DNA of 36,901 nt from Patescibacteria group bacterium (GTDB lineage: Bacteria > Patescibacteriota > Patescibacteriia > Buchananbacterales > GWA2-38-13): assembly GCA_028712155.1 (NCBI GenBank), contig JAQTQO010000014.1, forward strand, positions 1-36,901. Direction: 5' to 3'. Below, one piece after another: positions 23,345-28,994 of this stretch (its first letter is position 1; each line of letters starts with the position of its first letter). The position numbers and the translations under genes were made by a program. The notes under the pieces were generated by a model, which saw only the letters and a program-made list of their open reading frames with translations, ran no database searches and was not told the origin of the DNA.

Positions 23345-25111
23345 TTACACGATAAACCCGCCGGCCTGGAGCTCCCACAGCTGTTTGTAGAGCCCGCCGG
23401 ATTTGTGTACAAGCGTTTCGTGCGTGCCAACTTCATGGATGCGGCCGTCGCGGACCACGACGATGCGGTCCATCTTCATGATGGTTGAGAGCCGGTGGGC
23501 AATGACGATAGTGGTTTTACCTTCCATCAGGCGGCGAAGTGCTTCCTGAATCAGTTTTTCCGCGTGCGAGTCGAGGCTTGAGGTGGCTTCGTCGAGCAGC
23601 AGGATCGGCGCGTTTTTCAGGATGGCCCGCGCAATGGCGACGCGCTGGCGTTCCCCGCCGGACAGTTTGATGCCGCGTTCGCCGACGTAGGTTTGATAGC
23701 CGTCCGGCAGCTGATTGATGAACTCGTCGCAGTGGGCAGCCTGGGAAGCCGTGAGCACTTCGGCGTCGGTAGCATCGCGGCGGCCGTAGCGGATGTTCTC
23801 CATCAGCGTGCGGTGGAAAAGGATCGGGTCCTGCGGCACATAGCCGATGGCGGCGCGGAGGCTTTCCTGCGTCACGTCGGCGATATCCTGGCCGTCGATA
23901 ATGATCTGGCCGCTGGTGAGATCGTAGAAGCGAAGCAGCAGCGCGACGAGCGTGGACTTCCCCGCCCCCGACGGGCCGACCAGTCCGACTTTTTCACCCG
24001 CGGCGATGTCGAGACTGAAATTCTTTATCACCGTGCGCGTCTGGGCGTAGTCGAAGCTGATGTCGCGGAAGGTGATCACGCCCGTGGTGACCGCCAGCGG
24101 CTTCGCGTTCGGGTTGTCCTGGACTTCGTGCGGCGTTTCGAGGATCTCCACCATTTCCTCCGCGTCGGCGAGGTACCGGTAGAGGTCACGGATGATGCGG
24201 CCGAAGCCCCACAGCCGGGAAAGCATCTGCATCAGGTAGGTTTGGATGAGGACGAAATCGCCGACGGTGAGCATGCCGCGGCTCCAGAAACGGATGGCGA
24301 CGTAGAAGATGGAGAATTCCAACACCACCATCAGGGAGGATTGGATGGCGTCGGCAAAGCCTTCGACGTTCCAGGCTAATCGCGTGGCGCGGAATTGTTT
24401 TTCCGTCAGCTTGCCGAACTCGCGGTGCTCGTCGCCCGCGGCGGTGAACAATTTGATGTTGGCGTTGTTGGTGATGGAGTCCGCCAGCCGGGCGGTGACG
24501 ATGGTGTCGGAGGCCGATCGCTTTTCGTCGTACGGCAGTTTGAGAATCGCCAGGCCGTAGCTGATTCCCAGGTAGATGATGGTCCAGGCGAGCAGAATCG
24601 CGCCGAGCAAGTAATTTTCCCAGAACAGCACGACGAGAATCGCGCCGGTCCGGATCGTGAGCGGCAGCAGGTCCCACTGGATCTTATCGGTCACCCCTTC
24701 GTAGGCGTTGATGAGGCGGTTGACTTTGCGCACGAGGGCGCCGACGAACCGGTTGACGAAAAACCGGTAAGAGTGTTCGTGGAGGTACTCGAAGCACGAG
24801 TCGGCGAGATCAGCCAGCACGCGCGGCTGGAAATGGTTGTTGACGAAGTGCACGATCCGCCAGAGCGCCCAGGCGGTGCTGCCGAGGATGAAGATGGCGA
24901 TGATCGGACGGGTGAGGGCGGCGACGGTTGCACCGGCGGCGTCGGGTTTGGCAACGGCGAGAATGTCAAAGAACCGCTTGTAGAAGAGCGGTGCGGTGGT
25001 TTCAATCAGCACGGCGGCTACCGGAACGATCAGCTGGATGGCAACCAGCAGCCCGTAGCGTCGCGAGTGCCGCCAGAACAGGAGAAAAGTTTGTCGGGTA
25101 ATTTGTTTCAT
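23345..25111 (-). CDS. ABC transporter, fused permease/ATPase (exporter type)
   Basis: GLVGPSGAGKSTLVALLLRFYD...LSGGERQRVAIARAILKNAPILLLDEATSSLD...IAHRLSTI. Confidence 0.97.
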   Translation of the reverse strand: MKQITRQTFLLFWRHSRRYGLLVAIQLIVPVAAVLIETTAPLFYKRFFDILAVAKPDAAGATVAALTRPIIAIFILGSTAWALWRIVHFVNNHFQPRVLADLADSCFEYLHEHSYRFFVNRFVGALVRKVNRLINAYEGVTDKIQWDLLPLTIRTGAILVVLFWENYLLGAILLAWTIIYLGISYGLAILKLPYDEKRSASDTIVTARLADSITNNANIKLFTAAGDEHREFGKLTEKQFRATRLAWNVEGFADAIQSSLMVVLEFSIFYVAIRFWSRGMLTVGDFVLIQTYLMQMLSRLWGFGRIIRDLYRYLADAEEMVEILETPHEVQDNPNAKPLAVTTGVITFRDISFDYAQTRTVIKNFSLDIAAGEKVGLVGPSGAGKSTLVALLLRFYDLTSGQIIIDGQDIADVTQESLRAAIGYVPQDPILFHRTLMENIRYGRRDATDAEVLTASQAAHCDEFINQLPDGYQTYVGERGIKLSGGERQRVAIARAILKNAPILLLDEATSSLDSHAEKLIQEALRRLMEGKTTIVIAHRLSTIMKMDRIVVVRDGRIHEVGTHETLVHKSGGLYKQLWELQAGGFIV

Positions 25112-25330
25112 GGCTAAGTGGAGCCAAAATAAGACAATACCCATCCAGCCATACGCCGGACGCTCTACTTAATTAGACGGATTTTCACCCCTGCCCGTTA
25201 CGCAGAGGAAATTTTTTTCACTTCTGGTGCCAGGTTACACCTTTCCTGCCCGGCAACGCTTGCAACGTAATTTGAAAAATAATTTCTTTACTCCCGTCAA
25301 TTTTCCAAGCGCCATGTGTACACTTTTTAT

Positions 25331-25359
25331 TTGACAGGGGTATGCATAGGTGTTAACGT
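25331..25359 (+). promoter_or_regulatory. promoter of arginine leader / argB
   Basis: TTGACA - 17 nt - TAACGT; closely resembles 27225-27253. Confidence 0.65.
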
Positions 25360-25374
25360 TTCATCCACGTATCT

Positions 25375-25470
25375 ATGTTGTGTGCAAGCAAATTCCGCCG
25401 CGTGACGACGCACTGCGCAATTCGTCGGAACGTTCTCCGTGGAGAGCGGCGGTGTCTGGCGCGTATCTAG
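25375..25470 (+). CDS. arginine-rich leader peptide MLCASKFRRVTTHCAIRRNVLRGERRCLARI
   Basis: 31 codons, 8 Arg, ends just before an attenuator-type terminator upstream of argB. Confidence 0.75.
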   Translation: MLCASKFRRVTTHCAIRRNVLRGERRCLARI

Positions 25471-25490
25471 AAAATTTTTTTCAACCAGCC

Positions 25491-25525
25491 CCGCCCCTCT
25501 CAACGTGAGGAGGCGGAATTTTTTT
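25491..25525 (+). terminator. transcription attenuator terminator of argB leader
   Basis: CCGCCCCTCTCAACGTGAGGAGGCGGAATTTTTTT; 5' arm also pairs with leader segment GAGAGCGGCGG (25442-25452). Confidence 0.8.
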
Positions 25526-25579
25526 CATAAGGAAATAGACAACCGAAACCGAACAAGCTGAACCTTGAAAGGAGATAAC

Positions 25580-26515
25580 GTGAACGGAAACGACGTTCGA
25601 ACTCTGCGGGATGCGCTTCCCTACGTGCGCAAGTTCCGCGACGCGACGTTCGTCATCAAGTGCGGCGGAGAGATCGCCCGCGATGCCGGCGCACTCGACC
25701 TGCTCGGGAGCGACATTTCGCTGTGCGCCCACCTGGGCATCCACATCGTGCTGGTGCACGGCGGCGGGCCGCAAGCCGATGAGCTCTCCGAGCGTCTCGG
25801 GCTAGAGCCCGTCAAGGTGGGCGGTCGGCGCGTGACCGATGAAGCAACCCTTGAGGTTGCCAAGATGGTCTACTCGGGCAAGATCAACATCGACATCCTC
25901 TGCGCGCTCCGGCGCCATGGTCTCAAGCCCGTCGGCTTGAGCGGGGTGGACGGTGCCATCGTGCACGCCGTCAAGCGGCCGGCGCGGACGGTGCAGGACC
26001 CGGCGACGGGAATAGAGCGCGAGGTCGATTTCGGCCTTGTCGGTGACATCGTGCGCGTGGACGTCGGCCTGCTGCGCCACCTGCTGTCGGGGAACGACTC
26101 TAACGAGCACCTGTTCGTACCGGTGGTCTCGTCGCTGGGCGGCGACGATGACGGTCACGTTTACAACATCAACGCGGATACCGTGGCGCTACAGATCGCC
26201 ATCGCGATGGAGGCGAGCAAGCTGGTCATGCTGACCGATGCTCCGGGCCTGATGGCCCATCCTCCCGACCGCGCGTCGCTCATCTCGCAGGTCACTGCCG
26301 CGCAGTGCCGCGAAATGATCCGGTCCGGTGCGGTGACTGGGGGTATGGTGCCCAAGCTCGAGGCGGTCATCGCCGCTGTTGAGGGCGGCGTTCCGCGCGT
26401 TCACATCCTGGACGGCAAAAACCCCGACTCGCTCCTCCTGGAGCTCTTCACCCAGCAAGGCACCGGCACGATGGTGACCAAAGACGAGGAGGAAGCCCGT
26501 CCTCCAGTCCGATGA
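25580..26515 (+). CDS. argB: acetylglutamate kinase (ArgB-like)
   Basis: FVIKCGGEIARDAGALDLLGSDISLCAHLGIHIVLVHGGGPQADELSERLG...YNINADTVALQIAIAMEASKLVMLTDAPGL...GGMVPKLEA; SD AAAGGAG before GTG at 25580. Confidence 0.92.
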   Translation: MNGNDVRTLRDALPYVRKFRDATFVIKCGGEIARDAGALDLLGSDISLCAHLGIHIVLVHGGGPQADELSERLGLEPVKVGGRRVTDEATLEVAKMVYSGKINIDILCALRRHGLKPVGLSGVDGAIVHAVKRPARTVQDPATGIEREVDFGLVGDIVRVDVGLLRHLLSGNDSNEHLFVPVVSSLGGDDDGHVYNINADTVALQIAIAMEASKLVMLTDAPGLMAHPPDRASLISQVTAAQCREMIRSGAVTGGMVPKLEAVIAAVEGGVPRVHILDGKNPDSLLLELFTQQGTGTMVTKDEEEARPPVR

Positions 26516-26580: not shown

Positions 26581-26821
26581 CAGCCACCACAGTCAGCCCA
26601 AGTCTGATCCGCCTGGGGCGGACAAGGCACCGCTTTGCGACCGCCAGCGAGGTGAGCAGAAAATTAACCCCGTACCAATTTTGCCGTGTTTGTCCCGGTT
26701 TCCAGTGTTTTTTGCTGGCCGTTAGGTACGGCCGCGAAGCGCGCGGGGCGAATAGCCCCATTCCGTTGACGGCGAAGCGCTTCGCCAACGCCAATGATGC
26801 GAAATTGGTGCGGGGTAAATT
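26581..26821 (+). repeat. structured intergenic repeat, copy A
   Basis: AATTAACCCCGTACCAATTTTGC (26662-26684) pairs with GCGAAATTGGTGCGGGGTAAATT (26799-26821); internal GGGGC-GAATA-GCCCC and GCGAAGCGC/GCGCTTCGC. Confidence 0.7.
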
Positions 26822-27174: not shown

Positions 27175-27224
27175 GGGGAAATCATACGGCGTCATAACCG
27201 GCAACGGAAAGATCACTCAAGTAT

Positions 27225-27253
27225 TTGACACGTTGTCGTATCGGTGTTAAAGT
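27225..27253 (+). promoter_or_regulatory. promoter of histidine leader / hisI-hisG
   Basis: TTGACA - 17 nt - TAAAGT. Confidence 0.75.
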
Positions 27254-27263
27254 CCACCTGCGT

Positions 27264-27350
27264 ATGAACCAATCCATTATCAACCGCTGCCATTCCAGCC
27301 ATTCGCACGGCGTTCCTCATGAGGAACGGCGGTTGTTGATGGCTGTTTAG
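27264..27350 (+). CDS. histidine-containing leader peptide MNQSIINRCHSSHSHGVPHEERRLLMAV
   Basis: 28 codons with 4 His clustered at positions 10-19; followed by attenuator-type terminator upstream of hisI-hisG. Confidence 0.75.
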   Translation: MNQSIINRCHSSHSHGVPHEERRLLMAV

Positions 27351-27375: not shown

Positions 27376-27412
27376 CCTGCCCCTCCTCGTGAGGAGGCAG
27401 GAGTTTTGTTTT
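27376..27412 (+). terminator. transcription attenuator terminator of his leader
   Basis: CCTGCCCCTCCTCGTGAGGAGGCAGGAGTTTTGTTTTT, closely similar to the argB attenuator. Confidence 0.8.
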
Positions 27413-27413
27413 T

Positions 27414-27617
27414 CCGCCGCCATAGCAAGGGAGTTTACGACCGCAGCGAGGTGAGCGGAAAAATAACCCCGCACCAATTTTGCCGTATGTCGTCGCGTGA
27501 ATGTTCCTTTTTGCGCCTACGTTCATAACAGCCGCGGAGCGCGGGGCCGAATAGGCCTTCCCGCTATGGGCGCAGCGCTCCGCCGTTGGAATATCCGCAA
27601 AATTGGTGCGGGGTTGG
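27414..27617 (+). repeat. structured intergenic repeat, copy B
   Basis: AACCCCGCACCAATTTTGC (27465-27483) perfectly complementary to GCAAAATTGGTGCGGGGTT (27597-27615); internal GGCC-GAATA-GGCC and GCGGAGCGC/GCGCTCCGC. Confidence 0.75.
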
Positions 27618-27685: not shown

Positions 27686-28108
27686 ATGCAGTGTTTACGG
27701 CCGAATTTCGCCAAACGCGGCGGACTGGTGACCGTGGTCGCGCAGGATGTTTGTACGAAAGAAGTGCTGATGGTGGCATCAGCCAACGAAGAGGCGTGGC
27801 GCAAGACGTTGGAGACCGGCATCGCCCACTATTGGTCCACTTCGCGGAACCGGCTCTGGAAGAAAGGAGAGGAATCCGGCCATGTGCAAATAGTTTTACG
27901 CGTGCTGGTGGACTGTGACGGGGATGCCGTGCTCTATCTGGTCGAGCCGAAAGGCCCGGCGTGCCACACCGCGCAACGGAGCTGTTTCTACCGCGATGCG
28001 GTTTCCGATGTTGCACGGGCCGCATTTCCGAGCGCGCGAGACGCGCTGGCCGTTGTCGATATACCCGTGAATCTCGGTGTTCAAGAGAAAGGAGTCAGCC
28101 GTGACTGA
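27686..28108 (+). CDS. hisI: phosphoribosyl-AMP cyclohydrolase
   Basis: [52 protein letters not shown]...[29 protein letters not shown]. Confidence 0.95.
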
Positions 28109-28994
28109 TCCCCTCCTTCGTTTCGCCGTTCCCAACGGTTCCCTTCAGGAGCAGACTCTGCGCGTGCTGCGCGAGGCCGGCTACCAACTGTCAACCCAGG
28201 TCGGGCGCGATGATCGGCTCGGCCGGTCCGACGGCATCGAGTTCTTCGTGCGCGACCGGGAAAACATTGCGAGCCTGGTCGGACATGGGGTGTTTGATGC
28301 CGGCATTACCGGCGCCGATCTCCGGATGGAGGAAGGGCAAGACGACGTGCCGGTCTTGTGCGACCTGCCGTACGGCCGCGCGACCAACGGCCCGGTCGTC
28401 TACGTGCTCGCCGCTGCGGCGGGTATCACTCCCGCGCTCTGGGAGTCGCGGAAAAAACGCCGGATCGGCGCCGAACGCGTGTGGCTCGCGCGCCGCTGCC
28501 TGTCGGACGCCGGCGTGCTGCGATCCGACGATCACATCGTTTCCCTGCCGGGCAAGGAGGAGGCCGCCATTGACGATGGCCTGTGCGACGCGGTGTTCGT
28601 GATGACCGAAACCGGTTCCAGTCTGAAGGCGCACAACCTTGCGGTCATCTATCCGCGCCTGCTGACGGTGTCGCCCCAGCTCTACTACCGGCCCGGACTC
28701 AAGCGCAAGCCGGAACGCTTCCGGTACATCGAAGCGTTGGGCGCAGCCATGCGCGCGGTGCTCACTGCCGACCAGGTCGTCGTGGTCACTTTCAACATCC
28801 CGCACCGTGCGGCCAAAACCCTCAAGCTGCCGGCTGCCGTTTCCCCGACCATCAGCAAAACCAAGGATCCGAAGTGGAACGCCGGCCAGGTGCTCATCCG
28901 GCGCGCGCAATTTCCGGCGACGCTCTTGCAGTTGCAGCGCGCCGGCGCCCGGAGCATCTTCATGCTCGACGTCGCCGCCTACCTGCCCCGTTAG
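28101..28994 (+). CDS. hisG: ATP phosphoribosyltransferase, long form (HisG with C-terminal regulatory-like domain)
   Basis: [25 protein letters not shown]...[11 protein letters not shown]...[16 protein letters not shown]-terminal [46 protein letters not shown] start with GAAAGGAG, overlaps hisI by 8 nt. Confidence 0.9.

Follow-up and report, generated by a model that had tools for sequence, protein, structure and literature searches.

A candidate arginine-sensing leader-peptide attenuator upstream of argB and a histidine counterpart in a Patescibacteria genome

What controls argB, the gene for acetylglutamate kinase, in a Patescibacteria group bacterium? The question is raised by a stretch of 36,901 nucleotides (contig JAQTQO010000014.1 of assembly GCA_028712155.1; hereafter the window), in which argB is preceded by a short arginine-rich open reading frame (ORF) and an intrinsic terminator. 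The genome analysed comprises 1.44 Mb and is rated 96% complete. From its sequence, the element upstream of argB is very likely a ribosome-mediated transcription attenuator that responds to charged tRNA-Arg and governs the gene, as a first-pass annotation of the window had suggested. A second leader of the same layout, with histidine codons, lies nearby.

Parts and predicted folding of the argB leader

The argB upstream region has the order of elements of a trp/his/leu-type attenuator, i.e., promoter, short ORF, intrinsic terminator and structural gene (Table 1). The leader ORF contains three Arg pairs (CGC-CGC, CGT-CGG and CGG-CGG), and the terminator stem consists of 9 bp and a bulged A, followed by seven T residues. 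The pairings of segments 1:2, 2:3 and 3:4 are mutually exclusive. The first-pass annotation had already described the Arg-rich ORF with its three pairs, the two pairings of segment 2 (with segment 1 and with the terminator 5' arm) and the U-tract terminator followed by argB, and all of these are present in the sequence. It was silent on the promoter, on the probable his paralogue and on the histidine leaders found across the class. The promoter consensus occurs 21 times in the genome, compared with once for a backward control.

The proposed mechanism predicts the transcription start, translation of the ORF, stalling and the efficiency of termination from these parts. Transcription would begin near position 25366, and the ribosome would enter the leader almost at the 5' end. 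When charged tRNA-Arg is scarce, the ribosome would stall at CGC-CGC or CGT-CGG and disrupt both protector structures, the 1:2 pairing and the local hairpin, whereupon segment 2 would take segment 3 once this is transcribed. The 2:3 pairing would block the terminator, allowing transcription of argB. When arginine is plentiful, the ribosome would reach the TAG stop codon and mask segment 2, so that 3:4 would form and transcription would stop at the U tract.

Stalling was simulated in silico only, using co-transcriptional folds with the ribosome placed at a chosen codon. For transcripts ending just past segment 3, the antiterminator had a probability of 0.77-0.83 when the A site held an Arg codon at 25396-25426. 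Placing the ribosome at the leader stop codon reduced it to 0.00, and the terminator then reached 0.88. The duplex between the leader and the terminator 5' arm was better than 499 of 500 or 981 of 1000 shuffles, depending on the stretch taken.

Table 1. Elements of the arginine and histidine leader regions (positions in the window)
Element	Position	Strand	Details
Sigma-70-like promoter (arg)	25331..25359	+	TTGACA-17 nt-TAACGT, TG preceding -10; sole promoter match upstream of argB
Candidate Arg leader peptide ORF	25375..25470	+	MLCASKFRRVTTHCAIRRNVLRGERRCLARI; 31 codons, 8 Arg
Segment 1	25395..25401	+	CCGCCGC; overlaps first CGC-CGC pair; pairs with 25446-25452 (GCGGCGG)
Putative control codons	25423..25428	+	CGT-CGG; directly 5' of protector hairpin; from stall simulation
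Local protector hairpin (arg)	25431..25448	+	CGTTCTCCGTGGAGAGCG; Arg codon CGT at tip
Segment 2 (antiterminator 5' arm)	25442..25452	+	GAGAGCGGCGG; 10/11 pairing with CCGCCCCTCTC (25491-25501)
Intrinsic terminator (arg)	25491..25525	+	5' arm 25491-25499 (segment 3); 3' arm 25507-25516 (segment 4); T7 25519-25525
argB, acetylglutamate kinase	25580..26515	+	TIGR00761, 215 bits (family cut-off 151 bits); GTG start; Shine-Dalgarno AAGGAG at 25569
Promoter (his)	27225..27253	+	TTGACA-17-TAAAGT; consensus scan
Candidate His leader peptide ORF	27264..27350	+	MNQSIINRCHSSHSHGVPHEERRLLMAV; His enrichment p=0.002 vs proteome
Protector hairpin (his)	27311..27328	+	CGTTCCTCATGAGGAACG; His codon CAT at tip
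Intrinsic terminator (his)	27376..27413	+	
hisI, phosphoribosyl-AMP cyclohydrolase	27686..28108	+	PF01502, E=2.9e-32
hisG, ATP phosphoribosyltransferase	28101..28994	+	TIGR00070 and PF01634

A histidine leader of the same layout

The layout of the argB leader recurs 1.9 kb downstream, ahead of hisI-hisG, with His codons (HSSHSHGVPH) in the leader ORF. In both leaders the control codons agree with the downstream gene. His is the top residue of the second leader, and its enrichment is weaker when judged by shuffles (6%). In the stall simulation the his antiterminator had a probability of 0.70 at CAT/CAT/CAC, and the terminator reached 0.99 with the ribosome at the stop codon; without a ribosome, 2:3 was favoured (0.70).

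The two regions also resemble each other in sequence. Their promoter stretches are 72% identical over 32 nt (27222-27253 on the his side), and both leaders have CCAC just before the ATG, a CGG-CGG block and the same type of terminator. From the end of the -10 element to the stop codon they align at z=3.9, with none of 1000 shuffles as good. Anchored at the stop codon, 23 of 42 nt are identical, which was matched by 5 of 20000 shuffles, or by 110 of 20000 when the 6-nt block GAGCGG/GAACGG was left out. A strict local alignment of the leaders alone was not significant (z=1.7-2.4). All seven pairs of the protector hairpin are kept in both copies, with two compensatory changes and one wobble. Two points speak against taking this resemblance at face value: 113 of 500 shuffles gave hairpin covariation as good, two sequences being too few for a covariation test, and similar terminators, which both leaders must complement, may have imposed part of the similarity by convergence. 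On balance, the two leaders are likely paralogous copies that arose by duplication with a switch of control codons; the arg attenuator would then probably be the duplicate of the adjacent his attenuator, its control codons changed from His to Arg.

A search of the genome with a model built from both leaders gave strong matches only at the arg and his leaders themselves; weaker matches on contigs C60 and C26 were plain terminators and were rejected. Among the 21 consensus promoters, a recognisable leader follows only at argB and hisI, and others precede a flavin mononucleotide (FMN) riboswitch, a tRNA and possible structured RNAs. Elsewhere in the genome we noted the FMN riboswitch (locus L022), a tRNA cluster that includes a group I intron (L024), and a leader that looks T-box-like by eye (L013; no Rfam match).

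Two further features lie close to the leaders. Just ahead of the arg promoter, a terminator-like hairpin with a T tract (25188-25220, + strand) follows a short ORF at 25111-25173 (MAKWSQNKTIPIQPYAGRST), in which the stretch 25144-25165 matches a part of the his leader at 77% over 22 nt; this ORF and hairpin (25111-25220) are possibly a decayed third attenuator. A repeat of about 150 nt occurs at 26645-26820 and at 27444-27616, the latter copy sitting between the his terminator and hisI, and again at L014 (contig C8, ahead of a gene that looks like purC by eye) and L034 (contig C26). It has terminal inverted repeats of about 19 nt (AACCCCGYACCAATKTTGC), with covariation of the arms from copy to copy, and encloses a GGGGCGAATAGCCCC hairpin; it may be a miniature mobile element or else a structured RNA.

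Leaders in the class and the phylum

The comparison set consisted of 384 genomes of the same class and, for the argB family-profile search, 366 genomes of the phylum. The class has more than 90 families and relatives with genomes of about 1 Mb, which is consistent with a class of Patescibacteria. Within the class, candidate His leaders were found upstream of hisI in genomes G307 (MKNLNTTIHHHEQAQAI, followed by a terminator), G011 (MNYLFSIFGHHYALP) and G005 (MVAVINQKFNHHQINSPESR), each peptide closed by a stop codon. Three genomes (G239, G020 and G172) have the His codons at the C-terminal end of a YerC/YecD-like ORF of the TrpR family, which lies upstream and is followed by a terminator. YerC-like proteins of other bacteria have been named HisR, regulators of histidine genes (PMC9413887). 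CAYCAY was present in sense orientation within 200 nt after the domain at 15 of 30 TrpR-family loci, compared with 8 in antisense and a shuffle mean of 3.9 (maximum 9), and often lay inside a short ORF or tail ahead of a terminator. The His leader at one such locus (L130) leads into hisG, and the genes downstream of the class His leaders include hisI, hisG, a radical-SAM protein gene and genes for unknown proteins. The YerC-like protein gene of the genome analysed (contig C26) has no visible leader after it.

His-rich short ORFs, or His-rich tails of HisR-like ORFs, are thus common in the class and often have terminators after them; the loci concerned are hisI loci L066, L081, L083, L084, L085 and L087 and TrpR-family loci L056, L117, L121, L122, L128, L130, L133-L136 and L140.

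The chances are about even that peptide-leader attenuation ranks among the principal ways in which amino-acid genes are regulated in this reduced-genome class, with His leaders placed between HisR-like genes and their neighbours or encoded in the tail of the HisR-like ORF, and that in this genome one such leader was duplicated and recoded from His to Arg ahead of argB. The probable His paralogue and the pattern of His leaders across the class tell more than the arg leader itself.

Arg leaders are rare among the relatives examined. One candidate occurs in genome G619, which belongs to the same phylum and another class. There, an Arg-rich ORF (MHDRDVHSIARQRRLRSASLRGGL, or a shorter form with a GTG start; L151, 1243-1400) precedes an argA-like gene with amino-acid kinase and acetyltransferase domains. 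Besides an antiterminator of 8 bp, the leader has a terminator-like stem; none of 1000 shuffles matched its duplex, and it shows classical stall behaviour in the simulation; the consensus scan detected neither a promoter nor a terminator there. Among the relatives of G619, a comparable gene is present only in G577; the leader candidate there is weaker (3 Arg in 23 codons) and comes with a terminator-like hairpin. Because the G619 leader appears independent, Arg attenuation may have arisen more than once in the phylum.

Scanning the 384 class genomes with the arg/his model yielded mostly ordinary CCTC...GAGG terminators or coding sequence among the matches inspected, and these were discarded. 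An exception is an ORF starting at 1463 in contig C34 of genome G125 (L036), encoding MQCSQLISKVCFTIVLLKGRRLSA up to its stop codon, with a promoter, a CGGCGG block and a terminator like those of the window leaders. By its sequence it looks like a real leader, to which no control amino acid is assigned.

Alternative readings and known systems

Several results weigh against an arginine attenuator at argB. Codon enrichment was gauged in two ways, by comparison with the proteins encoded in the window and with dinucleotide-shuffled versions of this GC-rich ORF. Arg was the top enriched residue by the first measure (p = 9e-5); by the second, its count was equalled in 409 of 5000 shuffles (8%), which is not significant, and codon enrichment alone is therefore weak evidence. 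The leader ORF has no Shine-Dalgarno sequence and its ATG lies about 9 nt past the predicted transcription start, so that initiation would be near-leaderless. In folds without a ribosome, 2:3 was still favoured (0.68-0.83), which means that the untranslated default is not clearly off. In full-length folds with stalls at 25396-25399 and 25426, 3:4 wins at equilibrium; antitermination from these positions thus needs 2:3 to be formed first, and folding order matters.

The remaining points of this kind concern relatives and the pathway. The first-pass annotation had expected the leader to be conserved at orthologous argB genes, an expectation that could not be borne out. The gene itself is very rare, with matches above the family cut-off in 2 of the 384 genomes of the class and 7 of the 366 of the phylum, and no homologous leader precedes any other argB gene examined in class and phylum, hence there is no orthologous conservation; the comparison is limited to the probable his paralogue and analogous leaders. 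At the argB gene of genome G046 a tiny ORF, MRERQNK, overlaps the ribosome site. In the genome analysed, argC gave no match and argG a single match below the family cut-off, the search for partner genes having covered these two. Standing without two partner genes, argB makes control of arginine biosynthesis less straightforward than the phrase implies; a lone kinase step could use host intermediates or serve another purpose.

The alternative that survives best, although it is improbable, is that a short transcript (a small RNA or decayed leader) is terminated constitutively, that the ORF is a chance GC-rich frame, and that argB is expressed by leak-through or from an unseen promoter. This reading would agree with the shuffled Arg counts, the missing Shine-Dalgarno sequence, the lack of conservation at other argB genes and the additional hairpin at 25188-25220. 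However, it does not account for a His-rich leader of the same layout before hisI-hisG, with codons matching the gene in both cases, nor for leader arms that complement the terminator arm beyond shuffles, and the 54 nt between terminator and argB contain no promoter match. The His-specific copy 1.9 kb away and the His leaders in relatives are what raises the arg attenuator above chance.

It is very unlikely that the leader senses a general slow-down of translation or a ribosome-targeting antibiotic, as erm- or bmrC-like leaders do, instead of arginine. The divergent neighbour (23345-25144) is an ABC transporter, as might suit such a role, but the downstream genes are argB and hisI-hisG, each fitting the enriched codon of its own leader, and no resistance gene follows. 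Least probable of all is that the ORF is incidental and the element a T-box or a metabolite-binding riboswitch: the genome has an FMN riboswitch (L022) and the T-box-like leader at L013, yet Rfam gave no match over 25100-25640 at the gathering threshold or at a relaxed E-value, so that the leader is not a known riboswitch or T-box, and in its roughly 120 nt no specifier or antiterminator bulge was recognised.

Ribosome-mediated attenuation, the reading of the first-pass annotation, is thus supported by the order of elements, the stall simulation, the Rfam result and the His copy before hisI-hisG, and the arg attenuator is probably real and functional. The annotation's remark that Arg-leader attenuation of argB appeared undescribed in such a genome agrees with the literature searched: no report on attenuation in the candidate phyla radiation (CPR)/Patescibacteria, or of argB, was found in literature whose coverage excludes many subscription journals. 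The mechanism is classical; what appears to be new is its arginine specificity, the bacterial group and the tandem pair with swapped codons. If correct, classical amino-acid attenuation would extend to a group for which no earlier report was found, and arginine biosynthesis would be added to the pathways that a leader peptide governs together with an intrinsic terminator. Sister attenuators 1.9 kb apart with apparently switched control codons would illustrate how attenuator specificity changes by codon change. For organisms most of which cannot be grown in culture, a regulator that can be read from sequence alone would reveal which amino acids are sensed, even where, as in this genome, the pathway looks incomplete.

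Several known systems share features with the argB leader. Arg T-boxes (mentioned in PMC1262725) also sense tRNA-Arg charging at the RNA level upstream of arginine genes, but do so by direct tRNA binding without a leader peptide, and the argB leader has no T-box match; in Actinobacteria, no RNA element for arginine emerged from a comparative study (PMC1262725). In Pseudomonas, a leader peptide precedes carAB, an arginine/pyrimidine gene, and attenuation has been proposed, although it is ascribed to pyrimidines and concerns another gene and group (reviewed in PMC4997734). Arg codons in an upstream ORF sense arginine in S. aureus rbfL, where the outcome is translational occlusion of the ribosome-binding site (RBS) of rbf, a biofilm factor, rather than a terminator switch (PMC13009471). 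Salmonella speF orf34 likewise senses arginine with consecutive leader Arg codons, by way of ribosome pausing and alternative folds of the RNA; it differs in acting through Rho-dependent termination, unfolding of the RBS and decay by RNase G, and its target is an ornithine decarboxylase, whereas argB is preceded by an intrinsic terminator (PMC6386406). His-leader attenuators are known from the his operon of Proteobacteria and some Firmicutes (PMC9413887, PMC2965389). The argB leader resembles these in having codons for the regulated amino acid in a short ORF, alternative protector, antiterminator and terminator structures, and an intrinsic terminator before the gene. Unlike them, it has Arg codons, belongs to another bacterial group, has a near-leaderless ORF and is accompanied by a codon-swapped His sister 1.9 kb away.
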